From a virus: 22,744 nucleotides of DNA. The notes under the pieces are model-generated. The model saw nothing but the letters and a program-made list of their open reading frames with translations, was not told the DNA's origin and ran no database searches. The stretch is from the IMG/VR virus record IMGVR_UViG_3300009504_000040, positions 1-22,744 of that record, one strand, 5' to 3'. Both the position numbers and the translations under genes were made by a program. Positions 4,893-21,660 of this stretch are shown here, piece by piece (the stretch's first letter is position 1; the number at the start of each line of letters is the position of its first letter).

Positions 4893-6725
4893 ATGACACC
4901 GACTGAGACCATGCAGCTCATCGAAAAAGTGGAACGCGTCATCGAAGCCGCTACGCGTGCGTCGAAAGAGGCACGCATAGCACCGCTGGAAGCGGCGGCG
5001 GAGAAGCGCATCGCGTCGCTGTTTCGGCTGCAAGGTAAGGCGTTCAAACGCGAGGTAGACGCGGCGCGGCCGGCAGATGGTAGCGAACCGATCACCGAGG
5101 CGAAGGTCGACGAGCTGGAGCGACGGCTGGAGAAGGTGTTCATCGCGACGCTAAAGGAACAGTGGGACACATTCCAAGGTATCATCGAAGACGGGTTCGC
5201 GGCCGGCATCATGGACGCCGTCGAGCAGATGGGGCACAATCCTGATCTGCTGTGGCCACTGCTGGCGTTCGACGGACGGATGCAAGAATCGAATATTGAC
5301 CGCTTTCTAATGTTCCGGCTGGCGTTCAACTTGCGGTCACCTGGAGCGCGTGACTACATCGAGCACAGAAGCGCCGACTTGATAACTAAAGTCACTCAGA
5401 CGACCAAGGACCGCATAAGGCGACTGCTGATGGAGGGGTTTGACGAGAAGCGGAGCTACGATCAGACGGCCAAGGCGATCATACGTCTATTCCCGGAGAT
5501 GGCGATCGGCAAGCCGCAGTTGCACATCGACAGCCGAGCGCATCTGATAGCGGTGACGGAATGCTTCCCGGGCGATGTTCTAGTCGCTCCGTTTTCTCGC
5601 CCGATATCGCCGTTGCCTTTCCCTGGCTCGGGCGCGGCTAGCCTCAGTACTGGGTTTAGCTCCGGGTCTGAGTCTCCTATCAGATGGGCTGCGCGGCGTT
5701 GGTATGAGGGAGACTTGATCGAGATCGCAATGGCCAGCGGCAACAAGCTCACCGGAACCCCGAATCACCCTATACTCACCGATAGGGGATGGGTTGCTAT
5801 TGGCGCTTTGGCTAAAGGCGATTATGTCATCTGCTGCCGATTGGGAAAGCGGATGGCTATCAGTGACCCATGCGTAAAGGACATTCCAGCCGCATTCAGT
5901 GAGGTATTTGATGCGATTGAGAGCCGCCCGGGAGGAGCGGGCGCGAAGCGGGTTGCAACGCGTGACATGGATTTCCACGGCGACGGCAGGGATGGCTATG
6001 TCGATATTGTAGGGGCCAGCGGAGACTTGTTGCCTTACATTCAATCCCCGATCGCGAAGCCAGCCAGCCATGAGGTTTTCGCCATCGCCAACTTGTGTCA
6101 GTCTCCGTTCACGCGAAGCGCTCCTGTTGGCCAAGGCACGCGCAGATTTGGGGACACCCTTGCCCATGCGGGCAATCTCGCTCATCCGCCCCTTCGTGGC
6201 CGCGTGGGCATTGGCAAGATGGATATTTCGCTCAGCAGGCGAGCGCTTGGACCAAAAAAGCCGGAGGGCTTCCGAAGTATTGCGGATACGAACTCCGGCG
6301 CGTTTGAGGATTGTAGCGATACAGTCGTTGGAAACGCCATATCTGCGAGCAATTGCGCTCAGAGAATCTCCGGACAAATAACGTGTGATCGCATCGTTAG
6401 AGTCGACAGGAAACTTGGATGGGGGGGACATGTCTATAACCTCCATACTCGTTTCGGATATTATACAGCAAATGGCGTTATTGTGCAAAACTGTGGTAAC
6501 GCATACAGCGAAGGCGCGTACCAGGCCGGCGACAAGCTGAATCAGTCGGGGATCACGATGGAGAAGTCGTGGCTGACGTCAAGAGACGATAGGGTGAGCG
6601 ACGGTTGCGCTGAAAACGAAGATGCTGGGTGGATAGGGTTTTACGACGCGTTTCCGTCGGGACATCAACATCCGCTCAGGCATCCAGGCTGCCGATGTAG
6701 TCTCATGCAGCAGCCGGTACTGTAG
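4893..6725 (+). CDS. MuF-type (SPP1 gp7-like) minor head protein precursor containing an intein
   Basis: The 610-residue precursor would give a 300-residue minor head protein after removal of a 310-residue intein. The N-extein is helical and acidic or basic and runs to AHLIAVTE (residue 223). The C-extein (534-610) has the family end: SWLTSRDDRVSDGC, then HPLRHPGCRCSL. Together these are the MuF core (R.IA.TE, W.t..DdRV...C, HP.CRC), a protein bound inside the head near the portal. The intein interrupts the conserved TE motif. I chose ATG 4893, directly after the previous gene; the frame is open further upstream (to about 4632) but that region codes the previous gene in another frame. The sense frame stays open throughout, so the intein is not broken. 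Confidence 0.88.
   Translation: MTPTETMQLIEKVERVIEAATRASKEARIAPLEAAAEKRIASLFRLQGKAFKREVDAARPADGSEPITEAKVDELERRLEKVFIATLKEQWDTFQGIIEDGFAAGIMDAVEQMGHNPDLLWPLLAFDGRMQESNIDRFLMFRLAFNLRSPGARDYIEHRSADLITKVTQTTKDRIRRLLMEGFDEKRSYDQTAKAIIRLFPEMAIGKPQLHIDSRAHLIAVTECFPGDVLVAPFSRPISPLPFPGSGAASLSTGFSSGSESPIRWAARRWYEGDLIEIAMASGNKLTGTPNHPILTDRGWVAIGALAKGDYVICCRLGKRMAISDPCVKDIPAAFSEVFDAIESRPGGAGAKRVATRDMDFHGDGRDGYVDIVGASGDLLPYIQSPIAKPASHEVFAIANLCQSPFTRSAPVGQGTRRFGDTLAHAGNLAHPPLRGRVGIGKMDISLSRRALGPKKPEGFRSIADTNSGAFEDCSDTVVGNAISASNCAQRISGQITCDRIVRVDRKLGWGGHVYNLHTRFGYYTANGVIVQNCGNAYSEGAYQAGDKLNQSGITMEKSWLTSRDDRVSDGCAENEDAGWIGFYDAFPSGHQHPLRHPGCRCSLMQQPVL
5580..6431 (-). CDS. Antisense homing endonuclease (HTH plus Vsr/DUF559-like nuclease) nested in the intein
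   Basis: This 283-residue protein is encoded on the minus strand wholly inside the intein. The start is ATG 6431, preceded by GGAGG (6440-6444) with an 8-base spacer; the stop is TAG at 5580-5582, only 18 bases inside the intein's first codon. Residues 12-50 form a helix-turn-helix (ITRYLSGDSLSAIARRYGVS, then CIATILKRAGVR), like DNA-binding parts of homing enzymes. Residues about 117-206 look like a PD-(D/E)XK/Vsr-like core: LRDRGLNVRQQ, YNIDIAIPAVAVEIH with D144 and E153, RIKYLTECGWNVLYAWV. The C-terminus (264-283) is very Arg-rich. Codons align exactly with the sense codons, a register in which GC-rich genes often give spurious antisense frames. The domain content, ribosome site and promoter-like elements argue against that. 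Inferred role: cutting intein-less minor head alleles to spread the intein. A longer form from ATG 6446 is possible. Confidence 0.78.
   Translation of the reverse strand: MSPPSKFPVDSNDAITRYLSGDSLSAIARRYGVSNDCIATILKRAGVRIRNTSEALRLFWSKRSPAERNIHLANAHAATKGRMSEIARMGKGVPKSARALANRSASRERRLTQVGDGENLMAGWLRDRGLNVRQQVSAGPYNIDIAIPAVAVEIHVTRCNPLRARSSRAALNRIKYLTECGWNVLYAWVTDSHPLSQSAADDIIAFSQSANSNPSPIGEYRVIRGSGELVAAGHCDLDQVSLIPTPRSPSDRRLRPGAKPSTEASRARARERQRRYRARKRSD
6440..6488 (-). promoter_or_regulatory. Promoter-like elements and ribosome site for the antisense endonuclease
   Basis: Read on the minus strand: TTGCAC (6488-6483), a 17-base spacer, a perfect TATAAT (6465-6460), then GGAGG (6444-6440) and ATG at 6431. 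The -10 matches the sigma-70 consensus, the spacing is ideal and the -35 is weak (3 of 6). All of it lies within codons for the intein's C-terminal splicing segment YYTANGVIVQN, so regulatory and protein constraints overlap. Function is inferred from sequence only. Confidence 0.55.
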
Positions 6726-18724: not shown

Positions 18725-18738
18725 CAAAGGAGAGTGAG

Positions 18739-19035
18739 ATGAAAACAGGTGTATGGATTATCGTGGCAGCAATGGCGATAATGTTGTTGTCGGGTTGTGG
18801 CACGCCGGGATGCATGACCGACCCGCTAGGAGACATCAACGAAGACGGCGTAGTGGACATTCTGGACTTTTCGCTCATGTCGGCGGCATACGGCTGTCGA
18901 TGCCAGATACTAGACCGAGAGCTGGTATGCGACGTGTGTTACGACATTCGAGCAGACCTGAATTGCGACATGCGCATTGACAGCGATGACATGGACATAC
19001 TGCAAGCCAACTACGGAGCGATCGGGTGTAAGTGA
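18739..19035 (+). CDS. Lipoprotein with dockerin-like double calcium loops
   Basis: A 98-residue protein with AGGAG before ATG 18739. Residues 1-20 are a lipoprotein signal (hydrophobic VWIIVAAMAIMLLSGC, lipobox LSGC, Cys20). Residues 31-52 (GDINEDGVVDILDFSLMSAA) and 72-93 (ADLNCDMRIDSDDMDILQAN) are two dockerin F-hand loops; ligand positions 1, 3, 5, 9 and 12 are all present (D32, N34, D36, D40, D43 and D73, N75, D77, D81, D84). Seven further Cys are present, several between the loops. It lies between fibre and hub genes and overlaps the next start (TGATG). Dockerins bind cohesins in host extracellular complexes. Here a role in superinfection exclusion, as for other phage lipoproteins, or in cell-surface anchoring is only a guess. 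Confidence 0.78.
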   Translation: MKTGVWIIVAAMAIMLLSGCGTPGCMTDPLGDINEDGVVDILDFSLMSAAYGCRCQILDRELVCDVCYDIRADLNCDMRIDSDDMDILQANYGAIGCK

Positions 19036-20090
19036 TGGAGATCGCCTACCAGGTACGAGTCAAGAGCGCAGCCGGCGTGCTCCAGGCTATCATCGGCCAG
19101 GAGAACATAGCCGATATCGCGTTCGCACGCGTCGTCAACGGTGTCGGCTGGCACGTGCTGAAGGTGGCGATAGACATGGGCGACCACTTTGAGTCTGACG
19201 GTCAGATCGAGGTCTGGCGTAACGTGGATGACTATGGCTGGTACCTGGAGTACGAGGGGTTGCACCTAGAGGGTACGTGGGCGGCAGATGCTCAAATGGT
19301 TGAGACGTTCACGTCACGAGGCGCTGGCTACAATGACCTGCTGGTACGTCGGTGCATCGCAGCACATGCCGGCACGCCGCAGACATCCAAGAACGGAGCG
19401 GCGGAGACGATCGCAAAGGCGTTCGTGGATGAGCAGCTTGTGTCGCCAGCGGAGGCATCCCGTGCTATGCCGGAGATGTCTATTGAGGTGAACGCAGGTG
19501 CCGGCAATGTGATTCGTGTCGACCGCGCCTATCGCAACGTGCTGGAGGTACTGCAAGAGATTGCACGCATCGGCGGCGGCGACTTCGACATCGTGGGGAT
19601 CGGCGGCGGAGATTATGAGTTCCGCTGGTACAACGGCCAGCGGGGGACAGACCGACGTGCCACCATCATCTTCAGCACGGCGTTCGGCAACATGCTGACG
19701 CCGCGTCTTGCCGTGATACCGGCGACGGCCAGCACCGTGTTGGTGATCGGCGAAGGCGAAGGCGTGGCGCGGGCGTGGGAATGGCGACCGCCGCTGCCAG
19801 GTCCCGTCGGCATGGCACGCCGCGAGATAGTCCGAGACGCACGTGACACAGACAGCGCCGATGTTATGCAGCGTCGAGGCGATGCGGAGCTGGAGCGGCA
19901 CCGCGGGCGCACTGAGCTTTCATTCCGAGCGGCGCAGACAATGGCGTATCGATACGGTGTCCATTACCATTTCGGCGACCTCGTGAGTGCGTGGTATCGC
20001 GGCGATTCGTACGACATGCAGATTGTCGGCGTGGAGATCAGTTTCGGTAGCATGGCAGAACGCGTGGAAGTGGTGCTAGAGGATGTTTGA
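19035..20090 (+). CDS. Tail hub protein, siphovirus ReqiPepy6 Gp37-like
   Basis: A 351-residue protein starting at ATG 19035 on the TGATG overlap; GTG 19032 is a weaker alternative. Recognisable parts are the N-terminal WHVLKVAIDMGDHFESDGQI, YNDLLVRRCIAAHAGTP, RAYRNVLEVLQEIARIGGGD, IIFSTAFGNMLTPRLAV and VLVIGEGEGVARAWEW, which follow the Gp37-like family of tail-tip hub proteins (related to gp27/Tal folds). The C-terminus (FGDLVSAWYRGDSYDMQIVG) closes the last beta domain. It acts with Dit at the tail tip. The stop overlaps the next gene by eight bases. Confidence 0.83.
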   Translation: MEIAYQVRVKSAAGVLQAIIGQENIADIAFARVVNGVGWHVLKVAIDMGDHFESDGQIEVWRNVDDYGWYLEYEGLHLEGTWAADAQMVETFTSRGAGYNDLLVRRCIAAHAGTPQTSKNGAAETIAKAFVDEQLVSPAEASRAMPEMSIEVNAGAGNVIRVDRAYRNVLEVLQEIARIGGGDFDIVGIGGGDYEFRWYNGQRGTDRRATIIFSTAFGNMLTPRLAVIPATASTVLVIGEGEGVARAWEWRPPLPGPVGMARREIVRDARDTDSADVMQRRGDAELERHRGRTELSFRAAQTMAYRYGVHYHFGDLVSAWYRGDSYDMQIVGVEISFGSMAERVEVVLEDV

Positions 20091-21660
20091 GACCATTCAG
20101 CGAATAATCGACGATTTGACGGCGCGGGTGCGGCATCTGGAGACAATCGAGGAAGCACTGCCAGCGCACGCGGTGACGCATGAACTCGGTGGTGCAGACG
20201 AGATTGACGTGACCGGCTTATCGGGGGTGTTGGCCGACGCACAGACTCCGGCAGTACACGCGGCGACACACGAGGCCGGTGGCACAGACGAAATCACATT
20301 ACGTCCGTCCCTCTGGGGCGACGGGACTGACGGCGCGGTTGCGCTATCCAACATCGATCTGCAAGCGACGGCTATCACAACAACCGGCGACGTAACGCTC
20401 ACGCATAATCGCACCATCCAGGCGACAGGCGACATTACGCTTACGCATGAGGTCACGGTCAGCCGGCAGGACGGTATCGCACGCGGCACGTATCCGACTG
20501 GGTTAGGATCGCCAGGAATCGATCTGGAGCTGATCCTTGCCGCTATCGGCGCGAAGTCCATGCCGGCGCCTATTCGGCCAGGTGGTGACACGGCCGCGCT
20601 CTGTGGCGGAGTTGTGCAGCTCCTCTCTGGTGATACGGTGGAGGTCTCCGGCGACATCATCGCGACGGGCAATAACGCCGCGAGTGAGGCCGGCGGCGGT
20701 GGTGGTCTCGTGTTGATCATCGCCAAGAACGAGATCACGGGAACAAACGGGATAGATGTGTCTGGCGCGAACGGCCACGCAACGGCAGCGGCGTTCGGCG
20801 GAGCGGGCGCGTATTCCGCCGGAATGGGGGGCCATGCGGGGTTCCCGGGGTCGGGCGGCGGCGGCGGCGGTGGAAATGACTCACAACCAGGCGGCACTGG
20901 CGGGCCACCAGGCAGCGGCGTCGAGTTCGGCAGCAGCGTAGGGTTCGCCGGTGGAGACGGCAATAGTCATTCGACATCTGCTCACGGCGGCGGCGGCGGC
21001 ACCTACGGCGAGGCCGGACAGAACGCAGCGGGCAATAATGCCGGCAATGGTGGCAGCAACATTGCCATGCAGATACCGCTTGTTGCTAGAGTGATGGCTG
21101 TACATGGGTCGAATGGCGCGACAATGGGTGCTCCATTTGTTGCTGGCGTTGGCGGCCTGATCGGCGGCGGAGGCGGCGGAAGCTCGCGAGAACGCACCGG
21201 TGGAGCAGGCGGGCCATTCGGATCAGGCGGCGGAGGCGGCGGCACACGCGCGGGAGGAAGTGGCGGCGCTGGCGGTGATGGCCTGGCATACTTGCCGATA
21301 ACTACCGGCTATGACGGCGGCCAGGGTGGCGGTGGCGGTGGCGGTGGCGGTGGCAGCGGTGGAGCAAGCGGCGGCGCTGGTGGCGCGGCTGGCACTGCTG
21401 GCACAGGACAATCGTTGAACAGCGCAAACGGAGCAGGCAATGGCGGCGCTGGAAGCAATGGCGCAGCAGGTACCCACACAGGCACGGATGCTGGCGGCAA
21501 CGGCGGCGGCGGCGGTGACGGTGGCAACGGCGGCGGTGCAGCCGGCCTCGTGCTGATGATAGCGCCAACCATCAGCTACGGCGGAACGGTGACGGGTAGA
21601 CACATCAAGATCGAGGGTGCAGATGCACTCGCATTCATTCGCGGATTTGAAATCGCATAG
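20083..21660 (+). CDS. Polyglycine-rich tail fibre/adhesin-like protein
   Basis: A 525-residue protein. The first 25 residues are a helix (ETIQRIIDDLTARVRHLETI) that probably trimerises. Residues 30-75 carry the fibre motif HAVTHELGGADEI, repeated as HAATHEAGGTDEI. Residues about 205-500 are extremely Gly-rich, with runs of up to ten Gly separated by hydrophobic strands such as GLVLIIAKNEITGTNGIDVS. This resembles polyglycine-helix adhesins, for example the T-even-like S16 gp38. A final strand set (ISYGGTVTGRHIKIEGADAL) resembles the earlier ones. Host binding is inferred. The GC- and GGC-rich DNA here is prone to slippage or assembly error. Confidence 0.72.
   Translation: MFETIQRIIDDLTARVRHLETIEEALPAHAVTHELGGADEIDVTGLSGVLADAQTPAVHAATHEAGGTDEITLRPSLWGDGTDGAVALSNIDLQATAITTTGDVTLTHNRTIQATGDITLTHEVTVSRQDGIARGTYPTGLGSPGIDLELILAAIGAKSMPAPIRPGGDTAALCGGVVQLLSGDTVEVSGDIIATGNNAASEAGGGGGLVLIIAKNEITGTNGIDVSGANGHATAAAFGGAGAYSAGMGGHAGFPGSGGGGGGGNDSQPGGTGGPPGSGVEFGSSVGFAGGDGNSHSTSAHGGGGGTYGEAGQNAAGNNAGNGGSNIAMQIPLVARVMAVHGSNGATMGAPFVAGVGGLIGGGGGGSSRERTGGAGGPFGSGGGGGGTRAGGSGGAGGDGLAYLPITTGYDGGQGGGGGGGGGGSGGASGGAGGAAGTAGTGQSLNSANGAGNGGAGSNGAAGTHTGTDAGGNGGGGGDGGNGGGAAGLVLMIAPTISYGGTVTGRHIKIEGADALAFIRGFEIA

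Follow-up and report, generated by a model that had tools for sequence, protein, structure and literature searches.

Inteins whose homing endonuclease is a domain within the intein polypeptide itself, inserted at one conserved position, represent the standard arrangement (PMC6801210). In group I introns, endonuclease genes have been found to lie on the complementary strand, for example in Porphyra rDNA introns (PMC2585584), and homing endonucleases of the EDxHD/Vsr type include enzymes located beside split inteins, as cited in PMC12350094. The intein family described here was analysed starting from a locus in an IMG/VR virus record, and all coordinates without a locus label refer to the window, that is the whole 22,744-nt stretch. 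Like the canonical inteins PI-SceI and PI-PfuI, the family has a Hint domain at a conserved host site, a homing endonuclease and occupied as well as empty alleles; the endonuclease, however, is predicted to be a separate protein encoded by the opposite strand instead of a part of the same polypeptide. With the Porphyra-type group I introns it shares an endonuclease gene antisense to the host gene within a self-splicing element, but in those introns the insert is RNA on its sense side, whereas here the same codons are protein-coding on both strands and interrupt a protein gene, with splicing predicted at the protein level. The nuclease fold is shared with EDxHD/Vsr-type enzymes such as I-Bth0305I, although described enzymes of this type are free-standing, intron-encoded or placed between split-intein halves, and not antisense in an intact intein. 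The EDxHD-type enzymes between split-intein halves were reportedly described by Dassa and co-workers in 2009. The best sequence-level relatives of the nuclease core are the MTES_1575/DUF559 proteins (PF18741, PF04480; PDB 3hrl), from which the window family differs by the fused helix-turn-helix (HTH), a C-terminal YRVIRG hairpin and the embedding in an intein. No published account of an intein with a fully nested antisense endonuclease in codon register was found in the open-licence literature, and a prior description elsewhere is possible; as far as that literature allows a judgement, the parts are known and the arrangement appears to be new.

The features of the window locus are the following:

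4893-6725, plus strand: open reading frame of the host gene, a MuF-like minor head protein, with exteins at 4893-5561 and 6492-6725.
5562-6491, plus strand: intein of 310 codons, C1 to N310, the next residue being an extein Cys; assigned by Intein_splicing match, conserved motifs and Hint fold.
5739-5780, plus strand: intein block B (GNKLTGTPNHPILT), from alignments A1 and A2; its complement encodes YRVIRGSG of the nuclease.
6426-6449, plus strand: intein block F (GHVYNLHT); its complement provides the antisense start codon and Shine-Dalgarno sequence.
6468-6491, plus strand: end of intein block G (ANGVIVQN); its complement provides a -35-like element.
5580-6431, minus strand: putative antisense homing-endonuclease gene, 283 codons plus stop, with ATG at 6431 and stop at 5582-5580.
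6297-6401, minus strand: HTH domain, residues 11-45 (HTH_28, E=5e-4 in the window; model).
5727-6098, minus strand: Vsr/MTES_1575-type nuclease domain, residues 112-235 (MTES_1575, E=6e-6; structural matches over residues 112-233).
5967-6011, minus strand: predicted catalytic signature YNIDIAIPAVAVEIH, residues 141-155; its complement is the sense motif MDFHGDGRDGYVDIV.
6440-6444, minus strand: Shine-Dalgarno sequence GGAGG, 8 nt before the antisense ATG, supported by the family codon-choice test.
6460-6489, minus strand: sigma-70-like promoter of the antisense gene, with TATAAT at 6465-6460 and a weak -35 (10 of 12 matches), wholly within the intein.

The host gene was identified by profile matches (Pfam Phage_Mu_F, E=1.2e-6, and PHROG head morphogenesis families), and the intein interrupts its product between IAVTE and CGNAY. 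By its motifs and Hint fold the insert is an intein, its protein splicing activity being inferred. All hallmarks are present (C1, TPNH as the TxxH of block B, N310 and the extein Cys at +1), and C1, TxxH, GHVYNL and the terminal N are conserved across the intein alignment A2. The Pfam Intein_splicing match (E=1.5e-6) lies under the curated cut-off of that family, and in the AlphaFold2 model of the sense product the Hint fold matches the splicing domain of the Mtu RecA intein with Z 12.8 (110 residues, rmsd 2.6). Residues 155-250 of this model are disordered (pLDDT ~40), and residues 96-150, modelled with intermediate to good confidence, may to judge from the model matter to the sense protein as well. 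A Pfam search of the window intein gave no nuclease match in the sense linker between blocks B and F, so that a canonical in-frame sense endonuclease domain is absent; the linker is largely disordered in the model and the nuclease is antisense. Contig IMGVR_UViG_3300025135_000067 (L001/L002) carries the same intein, with protein identity of 100% on both strands. Elsewhere in the window, a small lipoprotein is predicted in a phage structural region (18736-19032, plus strand), with a match to the dockerin type I domain (E=1.4e-5), and a protein with long glycine-rich tracts and no Pfam match is encoded near the window end (20083-21660, plus strand).

The antisense reading frame is nested in the intein, its stop lying 18 nt inside the 5' end and its start 60 nt inside the 3' end, and the two frames are in register, each antisense codon being the exact reverse complement of a sense codon. 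Its product is confidently modelled by AlphaFold2 (mean pLDDT 86) as an HTH joined to a Vsr/I-Bth0305I-like nuclease, from which nuclease activity is inferred. The modelled nuclease domain matches Vsr (1cw0; Z 10.5, 113 residues, 2.8 A), the catalytic domain of I-Bth0305I (3r3p; Z 9.8, 92 residues, 2.9 A) and 3hrl (Z 9.5, 87 residues, 1.8 A). A search of the PDB with the family profile retrieved the DUF559-type nuclease 3hrl (E=5e-7) and, more weakly, the HTH of gamma-delta resolvase. The score of the window protein for the restriction-endonuclease-like Pfam family MTES_1575 (PF18741), 26.7 bits, is below the gathering cut-off of 38.2; among the relatives, 54 of 83 match this family at E<=0.01 (best 1e-9), and many match HTH families (best E 8.5e-15). 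E118, D144, E153 and R173 are conserved, H155 is found in many members though not in all, and Y141, N142, D144, A151 and E153 are invariant in the 19 antisense sequences compared. The sense motif DFHGDG...VDVV (5967-6011), which lies inside a region matched by the head protein family PHROG 15127, is the complement of YNID...VAVEIH and may largely be a shadow of the nuclease signature. The first-pass annotation, which was made from the letters of the window alone, had placed the intein at 5562-6491 and the antisense gene at 6431-5580 with 18 and 60 bases to spare, and had predicted a splicing-type intein lacking a sense endonuclease and a 283-residue antisense protein with an HTH and a Vsr/DUF559-like core; its coordinates are all exact, and both predictions are borne out by the matches and folds given above. 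Its proposal of EDxHD enzymes as near relatives holds at the level of the fold.

Taken alone, the window offers modest evidence for antisense coding (the probability of no antisense stop is 0.0019), and it is the family that renders it decisive. The family sample comprised 101 loci, drawn from annotated phages, from IMG/VR and from bacterial genomes, all of which match both the sense and the antisense profiles. The 19-sequence alignments were too poor in conserved stretches for profile scans, and a subset of five antisense proteins was used instead; the sample is enriched for the subfamily of this subset, although searches from the sense side had supplied some of the first 19 loci. The antisense frame is likewise retained in additional sense-side finds examined afterwards. 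Several tests against chance were run because the register phase is prone to shadow homology and to long chance frames: it stays open if only TTA, CTA and TCA are avoided in the sense frame, and for GC-rich members the chance of a long antisense frame is not small (P up to 0.5). Since the frames are in register, similarity on one strand moreover tends to force similarity on the other, and tblastn with the sense or the antisense protein retrieved almost identical sets of phage records. Stops and frame borders were scored in 85 distinct inteins with complete ends, the expected number of stops being obtained by encoding the sense residues with the codon usage of their own exteins. In the register phase, 0 interior stops were observed against 551 expected, and the other two antisense phases contained 524 and 1165; for many AT-rich members the probability of the open frame falls to 1e-8 to 1e-12. 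When two sense proteins were recoded synonymously (six recodings), none of the six gave a Pfam nuclease or HTH match in the antisense reading. The positions of start and stop and the MTES_1575 match recur among the relatives, and on this sequence evidence the antisense arrangement is confirmed and family-wide. In Salmonella phage PK1 an antisense reading frame (L126:1468-2277, minus strand) that overlaps the head gene has been annotated as a hypothetical protein. At another locus (L084) two inteins lie in one MuF gene, with an antisense nuclease frame in each.

The comparison of close relatives at the codon level shows which strand is under selection. Changes at sense positions 1:2:3 numbered 725:571:1587 in the exteins, with the usual excess at position 3, and 502:135:251 in the intein middle. 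Since sense position 1 is the fastest in the intein middle, the fast site there is the third position of the antisense codon. Eight independent close pairs, one of which belongs to the second, LAGLIDADG-like system described below, gave 407:189 for position 1 against position 3 in the intein middle (p=2e-19); in the exteins of the seven main-family pairs the same comparison gave 526:1007. Along the intein the ratio d3/d1 runs through 1.59, 1.54, 0.91, 0.75, 1.02 and 1.88, and the amino acid changes in the middle amount to 564 in sense against 296 in antisense, a difference of about twofold. As judged from these substitution patterns, selection reads the antisense strand in the intein middle and the sense strand in the splicing blocks and exteins, and the antisense protein is under ongoing purifying selection between close relatives. 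Distances of splicing blocks and endonucleases are only weakly correlated (Mantel r 0.26), so that splicing frames and endonucleases may have been shuffled.

The intein also appears to hold the expression signals of the antisense gene. When the most suitable codon around the conserved location was chosen as the start (ATG in 64, GTG in 20 and TTG in one of the 85 inteins), its distance to the intein 3' end was exactly 20 codons in 58 inteins; in 82, the frame terminates within the intein, at 3-81 nt from the 5' border. The family consensus TGGAGGTTGTAnAC-ATG places a Shine-Dalgarno sequence 8 nt upstream of the start, overlying block F (GHVYNL). Given the amino acids, the codon choice favours both signals: His is written CAT in 44 of 58 cases (23.2 expected), and Leu is written CTC within the Shine-Dalgarno sequence in 53 of 72 (18.4 expected); no bias was seen for Asn as AAC near the Shine-Dalgarno sequence. 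Promoter scores of at least 10 of 12 in the last 60 nt were reached by 15 inteins against 2.9 expected after recoding, and a perfect TTGACA-17/18-TATAAT (12 of 12) by three against 0.03 expected, the -35 of these sigma-70-like promoters mostly beginning 2-7 nt inside the intein. On this evidence a sigma-70 promoter is convincing only in a subset, and none is evident in many GC-rich members.

Two further arrangements were found:

L077:2234-3199, plus strand: free-standing nuclease of 321 aa (MTES_1575, E=4e-6), overlapping the end of the MuF gene by ~10 nt.
L116:1465-2052, minus strand: LAGLIDADG-like antisense endonuclease inside an intein (L116:1351-2175) at the same Gordonia MuF site.

The MuF gene at L077 is uninterrupted and has no intein. 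The nuclease gene follows it directly, in convergent orientation; its product has an additional Cys/His-rich N-terminus, and its opposite strand is non-coding and full of stops. The nuclease protein stands on its own, since the L077 version exists apart from an intein; this layout hints at either the origin or the decay of the antisense arrangement. In the Nordenberg-type intein the middle is unrelated to that of the main-family intein at the same Gordonia MuF site. Its antisense frame matches the endonuclease family PHROG_5046 (E=2e-15), is 32% identical to a free-standing cyanophage PP endonuclease and contains a motif, AYVAAFIDGEG, resembling I-MsoI (weak match to an I-MsoI-derived chain, E=0.0013); the match to Pfam LAGLIDADG_3 (E=0.26) is not significant. 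We refer to it as LAGLIDADG-like, the assignment resting on PHROG, the weak I-MsoI similarity and the cyanophage homologue. Between Nordenberg and Barsten the intein middle shows d1:d2:d3 of 42:3:8, with 43 amino acid changes in sense and 8 in antisense, so that the apparent antisense constraint is stronger still than in the main family. As this second endonuclease is unrelated to the first, the arrangement arose at least twice, and antisense recruitment has involved two or more endonuclease families. A scan of viral contigs yielded no new free-standing relatives of the L077 nuclease and no new antisense frames of the LAGLIDADG type.

Occupied and empty alleles were found in Gordonia and Escherichia phages, the window's own insertion site being outside this comparison. 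Gordonia phages such as Geodirt have an intein-less MuF region whose DNA is 96-97% identical to that of occupied relatives, and exactly the Geodirt empty site is occupied by 825 nt in Nordenberg and Sedona and by 948 nt in Angelicage and Vivi2. In Escherichia phage fEg-Eco19 the 816-nt intein found in Snoke is missing (identity 92%). Five kinds of host gene have been invaded (MuF, uracil-DNA glycosylase, dCMP deaminase, large terminase and phage metallopeptidase), and within MuF the inteins of the window's family occupy several sites. Presence and absence at exact sites and the invasion of several host genes, together with the location of the gene wholly inside the intein, are the signature of homing; cleavage and intein gain are inferred.

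Very probably, in our view, the element is a mobile intein with its homing endonuclease gene encoded in codon register by the complementary strand of its own DNA. At the level of sequence this reading rests on double coding, strand-specific selection, nuclease and HTH homology, fixed expression signals and empty and occupied alleles; that the gene is expressed independently of the late host gene, that the empty site is cut and that homing takes place are inferences, no transcript, protein or cleavage data being available. The intein would be translated with the MuF head protein and splice itself out, its middle serving as a weakly constrained linker, and the antisense gene, equipped with a ribosome site, start and stop of its own (and a sigma-70 promoter in at least a subset), would give rise to a separate HTH and Vsr-fold nuclease. 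This nuclease would cut intein-less host alleles near the insertion site, and recombinational repair of the cut allele would copy the whole intein.

It might be argued that the nuclease is real and expressed and has a main role other than homing, for instance in keeping out rival phages or in some domesticated capacity: competition is a known role of some phage homing endonucleases, and the product is encoded separately from the intein, without fusion to it. However, the gene lies wholly within the intein in 82 of 85 cases, presence and absence concern exact sites and several host genes have been invaded, so that we regard such a role as unlikely, while noting that it is compatible with homing and not exclusive of it. 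Homing endonucleases decay after fixation, and the shortened intein of Rhodococcus phage REQ3 (L124), whose antisense frame retains the nuclease without the HTH part, is possibly a stage of such decay; that the family as a whole is a relic, formerly functional and now unexpressed, seems very unlikely given frames that are intact in essentially all members and the purifying selection that close relatives show on the antisense protein. That the sense intein is the sole gene, with an antisense frame open by chance, as in the main alternative named by the first-pass annotation, and relatives alike through the codon register, is hardly credible in the face of the stop counts, AT-rich members included, of a position 1 that outpaces position 3 in the middle and not in the terminal splicing blocks or exteins, of the domain matches lost on recoding, of the Shine-Dalgarno and start codon bias and of the L077 nuclease retained opposite a non-coding strand.

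The mobile intein with an antisense endonuclease gene, which the first-pass annotation had proposed as a bidirectional element, is supported by fold, stops, borders and selection, and its generality goes beyond what was seen there: over 100 loci, several host genes, a second endonuclease family, promoter signals and empty sites. Antisense encoding is probably a general strategy of phage inteins, in which the unrelated Vsr-like and LAGLIDADG-like families would have settled independently, in register and with their own expression signals. The result would be a selfish element read in both directions, with endonuclease expression freed from that of the late structural gene, and its sense motifs would partly be shadows of a catalytic site. 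The family offers a large and verifiable example of selection acting on long stretches that code for protein on both strands, in which the constrained strand clearly switches within one gene. Well over a hundred nuclease genes have been missed by current phage annotation, and many apparent mini-inteins with an unexplained middle may, as our data suggest, be homing inteins read from the wrong strand. With their empty and occupied alleles, the Gordonia and Escherichia phages provide a tractable system for asking why a selfish gene goes antisense.
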